Shown in pieces: positions 25,933-30,883 of a stretch of DNA of 64,000 bases; the stretch's first letter is position 1, and every line of letters begins with the position of its first letter. Source of the DNA: an uncultured Arthrobacter sp. (lineage in GTDB: Bacteria > Actinomycetota > Actinomycetes > Actinomycetales > Micrococcaceae); the NCBI RefSeq assembly GCF_947495145.1, contig NZ_CANLXP010000015.1:1-64000 (forward strand), given 5' to 3'. Under the pieces are notes generated by a model. That model ran no database searches, was not told the origin of the DNA, and was given only the letters and a program-made list of their open reading frames with translations. The position numbers and the translations under genes are program-made.

Positions 25933-26145
25933 ATGACCCAGTCGAATAATCAACAGCCCCTGAACGTCAATCTCACAGAAGCCGCCGCGAAGAAGCTGGT
26001 GGATGATCCCCGGGCGCGTGAGGCGCTCGCGCGGAAGAACCCTGCCTTCGGCGAGCTGGACAGTGCACACAGCACCGGTCGGAGGAACAAATCAATCCAC
26101 CCCAGCAGCAAGCAGGGTAAGCCGGAGAAGAAGGTGCGCTGGTAG
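25933..26145 (+). CDS. Small basic hypothetical protein
   Basis: A 70-aa hydrophilic protein. An acidic/alanine helix at the N-terminal half (LTEAAAKKLVDDPRAREALA) is followed by a disordered, lysine-rich C-terminus (KSIHPSSKQGKPEKKVRW). The ribosome site GAAGGAGAG precedes the ATG by 6 nt, supporting translation. There is no recognised domain. The next element downstream is the large palindrome at 26189. Confidence 0.6.
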   Translation: MTQSNNQQPLNVNLTEAAAKKLVDDPRAREALARKNPAFGELDSAHSTGRRNKSIHPSSKQGKPEKKVRW

Positions 26146-26188
26146 TTCACCTGCCGGACGCCTGTCGGGAAAAAGGGAGTTAAAGTGA

Positions 26189-26239
26189 AACTGGCTCGCC
26201 ATTCTGCGTATGGGGGAATCGCAGAATGGGGAGCCAGTT
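26189..26239. promoter_or_regulatory. 20-bp-arm palindrome, probable operator
   Basis: Arms 26189-26208 (beginning AACTGGCTC and ending TTCTGCG) and 26220-26239 are complementary at 19 of 20 positions around an 11-nt centre. The right arm ends 7 bp before a TATACT -10 (26247-26252), so it overlaps where a -35 would lie. There is no following T tract, which argues against a simple terminator. Most likely it is the binding site of the HTH protein encoded 60 bp downstream. Confidence 0.55.
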
Positions 26240-26246
26240 CCCCAAC

Positions 26247-26252
26247 TATACT
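26247..26252 (+). promoter_or_regulatory. -10 element of the HTH/7-TM operon
   Basis: TATACT differs from the consensus at one position. Transcription would begin near 26259, giving a leader of about 40 nt. Confidence 0.5.
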
Positions 26253-26300
26253 TCACGGGAGGGGTCAAAAGTCCAGTCAAACTCCACCTGAAGGGTGATG

Positions 26301-27035
26301 ATGACAGTCACAGCTAAAGCATTCCAGCTGTGGCGTACCCGGATAGCACCGGAGGCAACCGTTTCAGACCTCTGCCGCAAGGCGGACATCAAGCGCTCCA
26401 CCCTCGCCCAGCAGCTGGTTCGCGGAAAAGTCTCTCTTGAAACCGTGATCAGCGTTGCCCGCGCCTACGGGATTCCACCGGTGCAGGCGCTCAGTGAGTT
26501 CGACGGGTACCGGGACCTTGAGGACGGCATGTTGCCTCCCACTCCGGCTGAATACCTCAGCCAGGTATCCCCGATGGACCTCCTGCGGTTGGTCCTGGGG
26601 CGCAGCGAGGATACCGACTGCGTAGGCCGCCCGTTGAGCTTCCAACTGGCGCCGCTTCCACACCGCTATTCAGTGCGCTCCTGGTTCGAGGCGGTCGACC
26701 GCGGCGATCTTCGCCACGCCCTCACCTCAAGCACCGGCATCGCTCCGCAGAATCTCTCGGCCCAACTCAGCGCCGGCCGGTTGAATACGCAACTATGCGT
26801 CGAGGTTGCCCGGCTATCGGGGGTCTCGTTGGTGAACGGACTCGTTGTCACCGGGATCCTTACCCCTGAAGAGGGCGGCTGGGCCGACGACGGCCGCGAA
26901 CAGGTCTTGTGCGACCTGCCTGATTCGGAGCTCATTCTGATGGCCCGGGACCGGCTCGACGGGCTGGGCAAACGCCTGCGCAAACAGGAGCAGGACAACA
27001 CACGCGACCAGGCTTTATGGGAGAACCTCGGATGA
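26301..27035 (+). CDS. Helix-turn-helix (XRE-like) transcriptional regulator
   Basis: A 244-aa protein. Residues about 8-60 form a helix-turn-helix: TVSDLCRKADIKRSTLAQQL then VSLETVISVARAYGIPPVQALSEF. A second, weaker HTH-like repeat appears near 130-180 (ALTSSTGIAPQNLSAQLSAG), followed by a charged C-terminal coil. Starts at 26295 (GTG), 26298 and 26301 are all in frame. The ATG at 26301 leaves 5 nt after AAGGG and is preferred. It overlaps the downstream membrane gene (ATGA). Upstream sits a 20-bp-arm palindrome, so autoregulation is likely. The exact family is uncertain. Confidence 0.72.
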   Translation: MTVTAKAFQLWRTRIAPEATVSDLCRKADIKRSTLAQQLVRGKVSLETVISVARAYGIPPVQALSEFDGYRDLEDGMLPPTPAEYLSQVSPMDLLRLVLGRSEDTDCVGRPLSFQLAPLPHRYSVRSWFEAVDRGDLRHALTSSTGIAPQNLSAQLSAGRLNTQLCVEVARLSGVSLVNGLVVTGILTPEEGGWADDGREQVLCDLPDSELILMARDRLDGLGKRLRKQEQDNTRDQALWENLG

Positions 27036-27772
27036 GTGTCGGGATGGCTATCCAATGGCTTGCGCTCGCGCTCTGCGTTATTTTCGCGTGCGTCCGACTG
27101 CCGGATGCAATGCGTGGCAGAGGGCGAAGCGTCTTTGCCGTGCTGGTCCTGTTCTGCGTGGCGGTGGCGTTGAGCCTGTCGCCGATCTATCTATTCGTTG
27201 ACAGCCTGCTCGGCGGGACCAATATCGCCAACCTGCTCATCCGGTTCACTCTCTATGCCATCATGTTGCTGCTGGGCGGGCGTATTGCTGCCGCCTTCGG
27301 GTCCAGGCGTGCGCTCACCTTAATCAGGGGGCCGGTCGGCCTCGCGGTCCTGGGTCTTACGGTCGTGGCAACGGTGACCCTTTTTGTGGTGAGTGACCTG
27401 CCGGAATCCTCGACCGGGCTGCGCGCGTACGCTGATCAGTCCACGGTGCACTGGTACTCGCACCTGGGACGCATCTACCCTTCGTATGTCGGGGCGTGCC
27501 TGCTGGGTCCGTCAATCGCAGGTGTCCGCGATACATCGGCCCGCTCCCTGCATCGGATTGCAGCGGCTCTCCTTGCGCTCGGATTCGTGATGGCCCTGGG
27601 CCATACTGCCCTCAAGTTCACCGGCATCAGGACGGGAGCGGCTGACCTCATTCTGCCCTTCGGCGCAATAGTCCTGGTTACGACCGGCCTTACGATGATC
27701 TGGCTGTCCCGCAGGCGGGCGACCGGGCGCCGCTCGGCCAACTTCCTGGCGGATGAACACCGACAACCATGA
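27032..27772 (+). CDS. Seven-TM membrane protein, MAB_1171c / DUF6545-like
   Basis: A 246-aa integral membrane protein with about seven hydrophobic segments and a short basic C-terminal tail (SRRRATGRRS). Layout and size resemble the actinobacterial MAB_1171c-type putative transporters that are commonly encoded beside an XRE-type regulator, though the longer cytosolic C-terminal domain of those proteins is missing or reduced. The ATG at 27032 overlaps the regulator stop by 4 nt, so the two are made together. It may be a sensor, transporter or receptor partner of the HTH protein; which one cannot be told from sequence. Confidence 0.65.
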   Translation: MSVGMAIQWLALALCVIFACVRLPDAMRGRGRSVFAVLVLFCVAVALSLSPIYLFVDSLLGGTNIANLLIRFTLYAIMLLLGGRIAAAFGSRRALTLIRGPVGLAVLGLTVVATVTLFVVSDLPESSTGLRAYADQSTVHWYSHLGRIYPSYVGACLLGPSIAGVRDTSARSLHRIAAALLALGFVMALGHTALKFTGIRTGAADLILPFGAIVLVTTGLTMIWLSRRRATGRRSANFLADEHRQP

Positions 27773-27864
27773 GGTGCCGGTTAGTCCTTTTGGATGATTA
27801 TTGCGTCAATAGTTGGAAACACTGTTCACGTTTTCATCATGGTGTGTCAAAATTATGATTATGT

Positions 27865-27950
27865 AACTCCCGGTGACCGTGGGGGGTCAGCGGGTTACAC
27901 ACAGCAATAGGTGCGTCCATTAGAACGGGTGGACGCACCTATTTCGTTTC
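27865..27950 (+). ncRNA. Candidate small RNA with two hairpins
   Basis: An AT-rich tract (about 27785-27862) contains TTTTCA (27831-27836) and TATGAT (27854-27859) spaced 17 bp, a good promoter pair. The predicted RNA starts near 27866, at an imperfect hairpin (GTAACTCCCGGTGACC at 27863-27878 against GGTCAGCGGGTTAC at 27885-27898), and ends in the perfect 14-bp terminator at 27906-27943. No reading frame of note lies in the interval. It lies between a 7-TM gene and ptsH. Confidence 0.4.
27906..27950. terminator. Bidirectional terminator before ptsH 3' end
   Basis: AATAGGTGCGTCCA (27906-27919) pairs perfectly with TGGACGCACCTATT (27930-27943) around a 10-nt loop and is followed by TTCGTTTC. 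On the minus strand it serves ptsI-ptsH; on the plus strand, the sRNA candidate or the HTH/7-TM operon. Confidence 0.75.
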
Positions 27951-27981: not shown

Positions 27982-28257
27982 TCAGGCGTCGTGGTCTGTC
28001 TCCAGGATGCGAACCAGAGAGTCGAGGGCGTCGCCTGCGCCATCATCTTCCGAGCGGAGAACCACCACGTTGCCGTGCTCGGCGCCCAGGCTCATCAGGG
28101 ACAGGATGGATGAGGCGTCCATGGCTTCATCCGCCGGGCTGCCCTCAAGGGCGATGGTGACCTCGACGGGGAGTTCTCCCGCCGCTTCAGCGAAGATGGC
28201 GGCAGGCCGGGCGTGAAGCCCTACCCGGCTGGCTACGGTTGCTTTGCGTTCGATCAT
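27982..28257 (-). CDS. ptsH: Phosphocarrier protein HPr
   Basis: A 91-aa general PTS phosphocarrier. His near residue 15 in VGLHARPAAIFAE is the EI-phosphorylated residue. The MDASSILSLMSLGAEHG region carries the serine position that HPr kinase uses in low-GC bacteria, but no HPr kinase is expected in actinobacteria. GGAAGGA precedes the ATG. It lies 29 bp downstream of ptsI. Together with EI it should also feed the HPr-like domain of DhaM in this window. Confidence 0.93.
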   Translation of the reverse strand: MIERKATVASRVGLHARPAAIFAEAAGELPVEVTIALEGSPADEAMDASSILSLMSLGAEHGNVVVLRSEDDGAGDALDSLVRILETDHDA

Positions 28258-28286
28258 GATCTTCCTTCCGTTGCTTTGGTGCGAGC

Positions 28287-29975
28287 CTACAGGCCCAGGG
28301 TCTCAAGAATCGGCAGACCGGCGCGCACTGCTGCGCGAGCCTCGAGGGCGGTGGGCGCGGCAAGAGCCTTCTCTGCCAGCTCCTGTGCGTCAGCGAGGGA
28401 CACCGATCCAATCACGGCAGCCACGGCTGCCAGTGCCCGTGAACTCATCGACAGCGATTGAACGCCCAGGCCAACCAGCACGACGGCGAGAGCCGGATCG
28501 GCGGCAGCCTCACCACATACGCCGACTGACTTGTCCCCACCCGCACCGTCCTGAGCGTCGTGATCCGTCTCGCCGCGGGCGGCGTCGGCACCGGCCACAG
28601 TGAGCCGGATCAGCTCAAGGACGGCCGGCTGCCAGGGATCGTTCAGGGCGGCGAGGGGTCCGAGCTGGCGGTCCGCGGCCATGACGTACTGCGTGAGGTC
28701 ATTGGTGCCGATCGACGCGAAGTTCACGTGCTGCAGGATGGTGCGTGAGGTCAGCGCGGCTGACGGAACCTCCACCATGACGCCGGGAACCTTGAGGCCG
28801 GCTGCTGCACAGGAATCAGCGAAACGCCGGGCCTCCTCCGCGGTGGAAATCATGGGTGCCATGACCCAGATGTCGGTGGTTGCGCCGTCGGCTGCTTCAG
28901 CAATCGCCTTCAGCTGGCGGTCGACCACCCCGGGCGTCGAAAGCTCCGTGCGGTAGCCGCGAACGCCGAGCGCAGGGTTCGGTTCCGAAGCGTCGGTCAG
29001 GAAGGGCAGGGGTTTGTCTGCTCCGGCGTCGAGTGTGCGCACCACTACTTTGCCGTCGGGGAACGCGTCGAACACCTGACGGTACGCTGCGGATTGCTCG
29101 GCGACGGTGGGCTCGGTGTCCCGGTCGAGGAAACAGAATTCCGTGCGCAGAAGTCCTACGCCTTCGGCACCGGCTTCGGCCGCCTTGCGGGCATCAGCAC
29201 CTGCCCCAACGTTGGCGAGCAGCGGCACGCGGTGCCCGTCCGTCGTCGTGCAGGTACCGCTGTAGGTGCCGAGGGAGCGCGCCTGTTCAGCCCAGATGAC
29301 GGCTGCCGTGCGCTCGACGTCACCCGGCCCGGTAAGCACTGTCCCGGCGGCGCCGTCGACGAAGACTTCCGTGCCGTCCTCGATGTCCTCAACCCCGCGG
29401 GCGGCGACCACGGCGGGCAGCCCCAGTGCACGCGCCAGGATGGCCGTGTGGGACTGGGGGCCGCCGGAGGAAGTGATCAGTGCCAGAACCCGTTCCGGGT
29501 TGAGCGTGGCGGTATCGGCCGGCGCAAGGTCCTCCGCGGCGAGGACGAACGGGTGGTCCGCCGTGGGAATGCCGGGAGCCGGCTGGCCGCGCAGTTCAGC
29601 GACCACCCGCGAGCGGACGTCCAGAACGTCCTGGGTTCGTTCGGCCATGTAGCCGCCCAGGCCGCGGAGCATGTCCGCGACCTGGGCGCCCGCCTCCCAT
29701 ACCGCGCGCTCGGCTGACGTGCCGGCCACGATGAGCGCGTTGGCCGACTTCAGGAGCATTGGATCCGCAGCCATCATGGCCGTGGCTTCAAGAACTGCCC
29801 TTGCGTCGCCGGTTGCGGAGTCGGCGCGTTTCTGGAGTTCAGCCTGGACGGTCTTGGCGGCGGTCTTCAGCCGTGCCGTCTCCTCGTCAACCGTGGTGTT
29901 GGACCGCCGTTCCCGGGCGGCGAGCCATTGGCGGAATCGATGGAGAAGGCACTGACAGCCGAGGGAAACACTCAC
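28287..29975 (-). CDS. ptsI: Phosphoenolpyruvate-protein phosphotransferase (EI), abnormal 5' end
   Basis: From VDEETARLKTAAK onward this is a normal EI: the phospho-His in GGPQSHTAILARALG, GVGLLRTEFCFL, VVRTLDAGADKPL, GVRGYRTELS and SIGTNDLTQYVMAADR of the PEP-binding domain, and GVCGEAAADP near the C-terminus. Upstream of VDEE the expected GVGVSxGxxxG start and Pro-rich segment are not recognisable. The in-frame residues (MSVSLGCQC...) look unlike EI, and the frame stays open further upstream into probable antisense sequence. GTG 29975 would give 562 aa, near the usual length, so the start is provisional. A rearrangement, frameshift pair or sequencing error is possible. An extra acidic insert of about 15 residues (ARGETDHDAQDGAGG) precedes GVCGEAAAD. 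Confidence 0.72.
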   Translation of the reverse strand: MSVSLGCQCLLHRFRQWLAARERRSNTTVDEETARLKTAAKTVQAELQKRADSATGDARAVLEATAMMAADPMLLKSANALIVAGTSAERAVWEAGAQVADMLRGLGGYMAERTQDVLDVRSRVVAELRGQPAPGIPTADHPFVLAAEDLAPADTATLNPERVLALITSSGGPQSHTAILARALGLPAVVAARGVEDIEDGTEVFVDGAAGTVLTGPGDVERTAAVIWAEQARSLGTYSGTCTTTDGHRVPLLANVGAGADARKAAEAGAEGVGLLRTEFCFLDRDTEPTVAEQSAAYRQVFDAFPDGKVVVRTLDAGADKPLPFLTDASEPNPALGVRGYRTELSTPGVVDRQLKAIAEAADGATTDIWVMAPMISTAEEARRFADSCAAAGLKVPGVMVEVPSAALTSRTILQHVNFASIGTNDLTQYVMAADRQLGPLAALNDPWQPAVLELIRLTVAGADAARGETDHDAQDGAGGDKSVGVCGEAAADPALAVVLVGLGVQSLSMSSRALAAVAAVIGSVSLADAQELAEKALAAPTALEARAAVRAGLPILETLGL

Positions 29976-30029
29976 GCCCTCGAGCTGCTGCGGGAGTACG
30001 TGCGGCTCGAGCGGGAGGCGCAGCCCTAG
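29905..30029 (+). pseudogene. Possible 3' remnant of an unidentified gene opposite the ptsI 5' end
   Basis: On the plus strand a frame ending at the TAG of 30027-30029 reads as a typical helical C-terminus (ESMEKALTAEGNTH, then ALELLREYVRLEREAQP) with high third-position GC. It has no start or upstream body; leftwards it runs into the antisense of ptsI. If real, it is the tail of another gene joined to a 5'-truncated ptsI. I cannot name the family. Confidence 0.25.
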
Positions 30030-30030
30030 G

Positions 30031-30078
30031 AAACCGGAGCGTTGGGCAGCCGGAGCGTTGGGAAACCGGAGCCCTAGG
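30031..30078. repeat. Three 16-bp tandem repeats
   Basis: Units AAACCGGAGCGTTGGG (30031), CAGCCGGAGCGTTGGG (30047) and AAACCGGAGCCCTAGG (30063) follow each other without gaps, and a fourth partial copy (TAACCGG) begins at 30079. CCTAGG palindromes mark both ends. The last unit contributes the TAG stop of the PAP2 gene. Confidence 0.6.
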
Positions 30079-30883
30079 TAACCGGCCCGGCCCGGCGCTC
30101 CCGCCGGTAATTCCGGAACGTCAGCAGCAGCCGGTGAGCCGTGATGACGAGGGCCATCCAGGCCAGACCCAGCGTCCACGCGACCGCTACGTCCGTAACC
30201 CAGTGATGCCCGAGATACACGCGGGTCAGCCCCATGATGAACGCGAAGACGATGGCCGCGGTGATGGTCAGTGCCCGGGCCCGTTTGGAATGCTGCCGCA
30301 GTACCAGCAGGTACGCGGTGATGCCCGAGATGACGACAGCGTTCAGCGTGTGCCCGCTGGGAAACGACGGCGACAGCTCAAACGGCGGCACCGCGAACTG
30401 GAGATCGGGCCGCAGCCGACCGATGGCGTCCTTGCCGAGGACCGTCATCAGCAGCGATCCTCCGGCGGCGACGACCATCAGGATGAACGGTGTGAATGAC
30501 CGGCGAACCAGAGTCAGCGCAAGCACTGCACAGGTGGCGAGGATGGGCATCCCCACCGGTCCGCCCAGGTGGGTGAACGCGGTCGCCGCCTCGTTGAGCC
30601 AGGGCGAACGCAGTTCCAGTGCCGCATTGAGCGCCGGCTGGTCCAGGGCAGCGATTCCGTCTTCCTCCGCCACCGCTTCGTAAACCTCCGCTGATGCGAC
30701 GGTGAGCGATATCGCGGCACCGATTCCTACAGCGAGCAGCAACAGAAGTGCCCACCGCGGCCCGATCCACTGCGCAACAGCCCGAACGCACGTGACCAGG
30801 AACCGGCCGACCGGCGTCGTCCATCTGGTCAGGTCGCGGGTACCGACATGATGGTCTTCGTTCTCCGGGTCCTGGAATGACAT
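30074..30883 (-). CDS. PAP2 superfamily phosphatase
   Basis: A 269-aa membrane phosphatase with about six TM segments. All three PAP2 motifs are present: GKDAIGRLRP (K-x6-RP), SFPSGHTLN (PSGH) and GLTRVYLGHHWVTD (the R...H..D motif with the catalytic His). Likely substrates are lipid phosphates such as phosphatidic acid, undecaprenyl pyrophosphate or phosphatidylglycerol phosphate, dephosphorylated on the outer membrane face. The start is fixed by TAACCT (30890-30895, minus strand), 6 nt before the ATG. Divergent from pdxH, which also has a leaderless promoter. Confidence 0.87.
   Translation of the reverse strand: MSFQDPENEDHHVGTRDLTRWTTPVGRFLVTCVRAVAQWIGPRWALLLLLAVGIGAAISLTVASAEVYEAVAEEDGIAALDQPALNAALELRSPWLNEAATAFTHLGGPVGMPILATCAVLALTLVRRSFTPFILMVVAAGGSLLMTVLGKDAIGRLRPDLQFAVPPFELSPSFPSGHTLNAVVISGITAYLLVLRQHSKRARALTITAAIVFAFIMGLTRVYLGHHWVTDVAVAWTLGLAWMALVITAHRLLLTFRNYRRERRAGPVT

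Follow-up and report, generated by a model that had tools for sequence, protein, structure and literature searches.

Complementary candidate RNAs flanking an HTH–membrane protein gene pair in the Arthrobacter family suggest a membrane-linked switch acting through RNA

The window, i.e. the whole 64,000-nt stretch of DNA from an uncultured Arthrobacter sp. that was analysed, contains two overlapping genes for a helix-turn-helix (HTH) regulator and a membrane protein, with a hairpin on one side and a dyad-symmetric element and a G-rich segment on the other. The following features were assigned:

26180–26238, minus strand: sRNA-C, a candidate hairpin RNA of about 60 nt, with its 5' end set at the first stem base and a short T-containing tail
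26219–26209, minus strand: loop of sRNA-C, ATTCCCCCATA, 11 nt with a run of five to six C (C5-6)
26245–26250, minus strand: -10-like box of sRNA-C, TATAGT, 7 nt ahead of the stem
26301–27035, plus strand: gene of the tandem XRE/Cro-like HTH regulator, 244 aa counted from ATG 26301
27032–27772, plus strand: gene of the membrane protein with seven predicted helices, its start codon overlapping the HTH stop (ATGA)
27825–27867, plus strand: candidate 43-bp dyad-symmetric operator/promoter with the invariant positions AC-N5-CAT-N17-ATG-N5-GT
27860–27948, plus strand: sRNA-G, a candidate RNA with both ends estimated
27881–27886, plus strand: G5-6 run of sRNA-G, lying in a small hairpin
27907–27942, plus strand: terminator-like 12-bp hairpin of sRNA-G, followed by TTCGTTTCC

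An earlier note on this DNA had described the first gene product as a regulator with two HTH-like regions, which was borne out by the mutual homology of its N- and C-terminal halves (hhalign 96.9%, E 1.8e-10); besides ATG 26301, a GTG at 26295 is a possible start. The actinophage family phrog_16278 matches the protein in two stretches (E 1.1e-16). No Pfam family matched above its curated score, the best being HTH_26 with 17.5 bits against 22, so that the protein was not assigned to a characterised and unrelated family. The AF2 model has a pLDDT of 85–91 across the first 70 residues, and Foldseek aligned the N-terminal domain with XRE domains, among them those of DdrO, ClgR, SinR and Cro, at probabilities of 0.9–0.99 over 55–100 columns, but with weak E-values of 0.4–1.7; as modelled, this domain may fold like an XRE/Cro repressor. 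The likeness to XRE/Cro-type repressors and to phrog_16278 consists of the N-terminal domain alignment and the phrog_16278 match, whereas the protein of the window has two such domains in tandem and a C-terminal helical region. Its nearest named relatives, from Arthrobacter subterraneus and Arthrobacter sp. Soil782, are each 86% identical, which suggests an Arthrobacter-like member of Micrococcaceae as the source of the window.

The 4-nt overlap of the two genes was confirmed, with ATG 27032 inside the ATGA at the HTH stop and an alternative in-frame ATG at 27017. Seven membrane-length helical segments, as claimed before, are present in the AF2 model of the membrane protein, a poor model (pLDDT 54.6) that gave no useful fold match, and a curated family was not found for this protein. 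A C-terminal DUF6545 domain is a feature of the MAB_1171c family, and a resemblance to both had been proposed. For MAB_1171c this holds among the relatives, 17/32 of which match the NF042915 model of MAB_1171c putative transporters at E up to 0.1 (best 1.4e-13), but not for the membrane protein of the window, which gave no match to NF042915 at E up to 5. For DUF6545 it does not hold, as no such domain appeared in a Pfam scan of the 32 relatives at E up to 0.1. The likeness to the MAB_1171c family is thus limited to the relatives, the window protein itself having neither a match to the model nor a DUF6545 domain. A few copies of the genes seem to be damaged, as several of the membrane-gene matches in g1 contain a stop. 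For MAB_1171c itself, a knock-out with a biofilm defect is described in the accessible part of PMC8707978.

Adjacency of the two genes is widely kept. In the fetched loci a membrane gene lies directly 3' on the same strand for 81 of 89 HTH genes, a count over loci fetched for holding a homologue and with paralogues included, and ATGA or GTGA is found at the HTH stop in 71 of the 81 adjacent pairs. No membrane gene was found for the remaining eight HTH genes (L079, L106, L107, L128, L130, L132, L133 and L171), of which L079 has an HTH frame that continues to 448 aa, and in L136 and L137 the window query detected no HTH gene next to the membrane gene. The kept adjacency, the overlap of mostly 4 nt and the co-occurrence of pair and palindrome, which the earlier note had suggested looking for in other genomes and which was found there, support its proposal of a two-gene regulatory unit. 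Protein searches of 295 genomes of the family found the HTH protein in 134 and the membrane protein in 136; the model searches reported below covered 290 genomes, G290–G294 being included in the protein searches only. An HTH subfamily was delimited at E <= 1e-50, a border set after inspection of the list, where per-genome best values leave a gap from 2.1e-56 to 7.9e-44. Full-length HTH matches among 248 sampled genomes of the order were limited to the own family.

The surroundings of the pair vary. Both genes occur in at least 22 genomes of the same genus (among the matches listed) and the pair adjoins ptsH in 22 of 24 g1-type loci, so that its earlier description as an accessory block amid core genes was wrong. 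In g1, g32 and g26, ptsH and/or ptsI are frequent neighbours of the module (27982–30179 in the window), a proximity that makes a link to the carbon source possible. A small basic gene at 25933–26145, previously counted as a member of the block, was found in 21 of the 24 g1-type loci but nowhere in the loci of other genera, and is therefore a neighbour and not a part. Read from translations, alpha-mannosidase-like and ABC genes are the neighbours in g7/g10 and an RNase J-like gene in g29; as the surroundings differ between genera, the pair has been kept together in different contexts. Paralogous pairs in L116, L124 and L126 adjoin a PAP2-like membrane gene, again as read from translations. An Arthrobacter-kind pair was also encountered in L063, a record titled Vibrio cholerae 35D, which is probably a mislabelled or mixed assembly. 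Homologues of the HTH gene are found on 30 plasmid records from Micrococcaceae and Microbacteriaceae, and in all four records inspected (L185–L188) the next gene after the HTH gene matches the membrane gene in size. On the other side of the pair, L185 and L188 have opposite-running genes including those of a CHAP or M23 peptidase and a ParA-like or AAA ATPase, an arrangement that looks as if it served transfer regulation.

Downstream of the membrane gene, the 43-bp element aligns without gaps across 52 loci. Its dyad is paired to 75.5%, compared to 17.8–48.8% when one side is slid, and five pairs are invariant; covariation at the variable pairs did not exceed that of shuffles. In the window the element reads as a -35-like TTCACG, a 17-nt spacer and a -10-like CAAAAT preceded by TGT, and our promoter reading across loci is TTCACA, 17 nt and NANAAT, with TG at the extended -10 position; the sole promoter hit of a consensus scanner falls inside the element but at other hexamers. 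At E up to 0.05 a model of the element (R2) matched 110 of 290 family genomes, 49 of which had helped to build the model and 61 had not. These are 110/110 genomes with the HTH subfamily and 0/180 others. Coordinates were compared in 56 genomes, of which 55 had not contributed to the model, and in all 56 the element follows the HTH gene by 705–879 nt on the same strand; in the 248 genomes of the order it was detected in 10, all of the own family. Under stricter filters, a search of the own genome at E <= 0.05 gave no second site, and G203 has an additional partial match elsewhere (28/43 positions, E 0.016). L106 and L107 (g25) have an HTH gene without a detected membrane gene, yet carry the 43-bp element and the G run downstream of it.

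Two half-sites, TTCAC and TTCAT, are spaced by 8 bp, an arrangement that would fit a protein with two HTH domains, and from this comparison we consider it probable that the HTH protein binds the 43-bp element; since the position of the element is linked to the HTH gene, co-occurrence alone is no proof of binding. The operator would then not be the upstream palindrome, as the earlier note implied, but likely this dyad 3' of the membrane gene, which that note had missed. Paralogous HTH genes in L063 and L118 are preceded by an N17 dyad that resembles this operator, but it was rejected because its score of 11 stands against shuffle maxima of 11 and 10. The 3' half of the element (27855–27867) can also be read, throughout the 52 loci of the alignment, as a three-codon frame, ATG-NNT-RTG-TRA, which probably results from the dyad symmetry.

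The small RNA suspected just downstream of the pair was recovered as sRNA-G at about 27860–27948. Across loci the 43-bp element is followed by the G5-6 run and then by a hairpin; in those loci of g1 and g32 that were matched by pattern, the run stands 13 nt past the operator, with one at 12, and in g1 it lies partly inside a stem. A hairpin with at least 9/10 pairs follows the G run in 50/52 loci, a value that 25% of shuffles per locus equal, and a looser scan gave at least 11/12 pairs in 52/52 loci, but with the best hairpin not directly after the G run in 13. Because so many shuffles reach the same pair count, the assignment of a terminator to sRNA-G rests on its conserved place and on a terminator-like site reported by the scanner at 27927–27940 of the window, and not on the number of pairs.

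On the other flank, the palindrome reported before is present at 26189–26239, where arms of 20 bp with a single mismatch enclose a loop that is 11 nt long in the register used here. In an alignment of 51 loci (47 distinct rows) both sides have changed in 17 of 19 stem pairs (shuffled mean 13.7), with 168 double-change cells against a shuffled mean of 53.6, and 89.7% of the cells pair, compared to 32–42% when the partner is slid. Read on the minus strand, G-U cells outnumber A-C cells by 38 to 7 in 16 inner pairs (without the outermost two and without pair 13/39, which is rich in mismatches) and by 46 to 21 in all 19, the cells being counts of sequences and not of events; this excess favours the minus strand. 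Within the palindrome, conservation is highest in the loop, which is asymmetric. A -10-like box stands 4–8 nt ahead of the stem in 51/51 loci and exactly 7 nt ahead in 43, compared to 10.9% of shuffled regions, for a pattern that was defined after sequence inspection. A clear -35 box was not seen, and no promoter or terminator of sRNA-C was among the hits of the consensus scanner. The tails have a mean of 4.8 T per 15 nt, with a T-tract after the stem in g29 and in two g20 loci.

At E <= 0.001 a model of the hairpin (R1) matched 110 of 290 genomes, 88 of them with more than 50 bits and all of these within the HTH subfamily; the other 22 matches were weak (below 44 bits). In 40/40 genomes outside the R1 alignment the hairpin lies 49–130 nt upstream of the HTH gene on the opposite strand. 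Pairing of sRNA-C with the ribosome-binding region of the HTH gene is not conserved, reaching at least 6 nt in only 9/46 loci. Neither sRNA-C nor sRNA-G matches Rfam at the gathering score, and mir-2574 matches near the palindrome (E 0.014 and 0.035), far under that score, were dismissed as chance. In g7/g10 the hairpin is oriented towards genes for an ABC exporter or ABC-F protein, for which it might serve as a leader. We regard sRNA-C and sRNA-G as very probably real RNAs.

Among the 110 genomes with the HTH subfamily, 22 have no strong local hairpin; 21 of these belong to genus g25 and the remaining one to g29. These 22 and G291 were searched with the pattern GGCTCC-TCCCCCA-GGAGCC, which revealed a single unlinked copy of the C hairpin in 11/23 genomes (0/23 with the reversed pattern as control) and no C-loop copy in the other 12. 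TATATT stands shortly before the stem on the C-loop strand in 11/11 unlinked copies, and 8/11 have a tail resembling TTTCACTTTAA of g1. These features of the unlinked copies argue that the hairpin is a separate gene, in the sister genus g25 presumably a stand-alone one, which is read on the C-loop strand. Genus g20 (G019, G047, G071; L165, L166, L167) carries a C-loop hairpin close to an ABC exporter, and no HTH or membrane gene was seen beside the hairpin; this exporter also adjoins the pair in g7/g10; a T5 tract follows the stem in two of the three g20 loci (L165 and L166). No HTH match was among the matches listed for G019, G047 and G071, and model R2 found no 43-bp element in G019.

Comparison of the 11-nt C loop with the G RNA gave perfect complementarity of at least 6 nt in 46/46 loci with both, with match lengths of 6 nt in 19 loci, 7 in 6, 8 in 11, 9 in 6, 10 in 1 and 11 in 3, the last being three g29 loci. 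These counts omit five of the 51 sRNA-C loci in which the operator was not found by text pattern (L074, L079, L082, L098 and L102), and model R2 does find the 43-bp element in the genomes of these five. Unlinked C hairpins are complementary to the G run over 7–9 nt in 7/7 genomes compared; two further rows, of 5 and 4 nt, arose where the dyad pattern matched the reverse strand and are not G elements, and L171 yields no row. In G143 the loop ends in G instead of A, and its G RNA has a C at the matching position. The match is a short homopolymer run, with only 6 nt in the window and the other loci of the 19/46, and random segments of equal length from the same locus reach the observed complementarity in 4.4% of draws on average. 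True partners exceeded shuffled ones in 300/300 comparisons (341, where the shuffles averaged 329 and went no higher than 339), a small margin that is inflated by relatedness. Judged from these sequences, the odds that sRNA-C and sRNA-G indeed interact are slightly better than even.

Therefore, from the overlap and kept adjacency of the two genes, the dyad linked to the HTH subfamily and the complementarity of the two candidate RNAs, we propose, with a probability of roughly 0.4, a membrane-linked regulatory module with a small-RNA output in which sRNA-G would act as a decoy of sRNA-C. In a first step the seven-TM protein, translationally coupled to the HTH protein, would sense a membrane or extracellular signal and hold or release the regulator; such control of the HTH protein by the membrane protein we infer with somewhat less than even confidence. 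The two tandem HTH domains of each monomer may then read TTCAC and TTCAT, so that a dimer would cover the 43-bp dyad, which reaches from the -35 of the sRNA-G promoter to about +8, and would thereby control sRNA-G, most likely as a repressor. In a third step the G5-6 run of sRNA-G would pair with the C-rich loop of sRNA-C, a hairpin RNA predicted to be transcribed away from the HTH gene. sRNA-C itself may target G-rich ribosome-binding sites as 6C/B11 does, with sRNA-G as its decoy or sponge. We also suggest, more tentatively, that a plasmid-derived HTH/seven-TM pair has turned into a chromosomal membrane switch, in which a single genomic operator drives a G-rich sponge that titrates a hitherto unrecognised regulator with a C-rich loop, the arrangement being kept by selection even where the C gene has been relocated.

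Four other explanations were weighed against this module. The HTH–membrane protein pair might control sRNA-G while sRNA-C pairs with G-rich mRNA leaders and sRNA-G with other C-rich RNAs, the two sharing a locus through common regulation and not acting on each other. The shortness of the G/C run, only 6 nt in most g1 loci, would agree with this, as would g20 with its C hairpin and a G019 that lacks the element by model R2, but complementarity in every linked locus and every unlinked genome compared, and the 11-nt perfect matches of g29, make such independence unlikely. We consider it still less likely that the hairpins are ordinary terminators or attenuators around an autoregulated operon, with the 43-bp element promoting a 3' UTR or nothing important. 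Hairpins do lie at both ends, the upstream one precedes ABC exporter or ABC-F genes in g7/g10 and g20, and T-tracts are present in g29 and two g20 loci; the conserved 11-nt loop, covarying stem, -10 box, stand-alone copies and perfect genome co-occurrence, however, exceed what a terminator needs. As a DNA operator of the HTH protein, whose arms would covary through changes of the recognition helix between clades, the palindrome is suitably placed upstream of the HTH gene in 88/110 subfamily genomes, and yet DNA symmetry does not give a G-U excess on one strand, the asymmetric loop is its most conserved part and the g25 copies are unlinked with their own -10. We thus rejected this very improbable reading on strand asymmetry and trans copies, and the palindrome is better read as an RNA with a C-rich loop from the minus strand. 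Hardly credible, finally, is a remnant of a conjugative-plasmid regulator without a current role here, since its plasmid homologues beside ParA-like/AAA ATPase and CHAP/M23 peptidase genes in examples, and an HTH frame that is split in the assembly of G278, stand against the presence of both genes in all 22 same-genus genomes among the matches listed and an invariant operator core.

The proposed membrane-linked module combines parts that resemble known systems. Streptococcal LytTR systems have a transcription factor with a membrane-bound inhibitor encoded beside it; compared with these, what is seen here is the gene order and overlap. Sponge circuits and C-rich sRNAs are known as well, and we know of no other case in which they are combined with a coupled membrane protein. 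Our literature search, with most subscription journals outside its coverage, returned nothing on these RNAs or the pair, and no actinobacterial sponge RNA for C-rich riboregulators was found. If true, the module would mean two new families of sRNA for Arthrobacter and its relatives, along with a defined operator and a membrane-to-RNA pathway testable in harmless soil strains, and it would be a self-contained signalling circuit new to Actinobacteria; it also suggests a route by which a regulator pair that plasmids carry as well may gain a chromosomal use.

6C/B11 RNAs (RF01066) are similar in their C-rich loops, and B11 of Mycobacterium abscessus represses a reporter whose leader, a 5' UTR, has a tract of six G, with both C-rich loops mutated as a test (accessible part of PMC10470900). 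sRNA-C has a single hairpin instead of two, no 6C match was found at the locus, and sRNA-C was rejected as a 6C RNA after a search of the own genome gave 0 RF01066 matches, a weak test in which 1/14 control genomes matched and none exceeded the cut-off. RosA in Bacillus and, as proposed, RsaI in Staphylococcus are sponge RNAs by which the level of a C-rich riboregulator is set (PMC8216469, in the part available). RosA of Bacillus subtilis is described there as a stand-alone G-rich RNA that is repressed by CcpA, with a predicted CcpA site at its transcription start, and that binds the C-rich RoxS. As far as that part of the source goes, the likeness consists of a stand-alone G-rich RNA complementary to a C-rich sRNA and, if the HTH protein acts on the 43-bp element as proposed, of a repressor site at the start; the complementarity is found here at the sequence level in 46/46 linked loci and 7/7 unlinked genomes. 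Unlike in RosA/RoxS as described there, the regulator proposed here has tandem HTH domains, its gene lies next to that of the RNA and forms a pair with a membrane-protein gene, the C-rich RNA usually lies on the other flank, and the pairing of the two RNAs is a predicted one.
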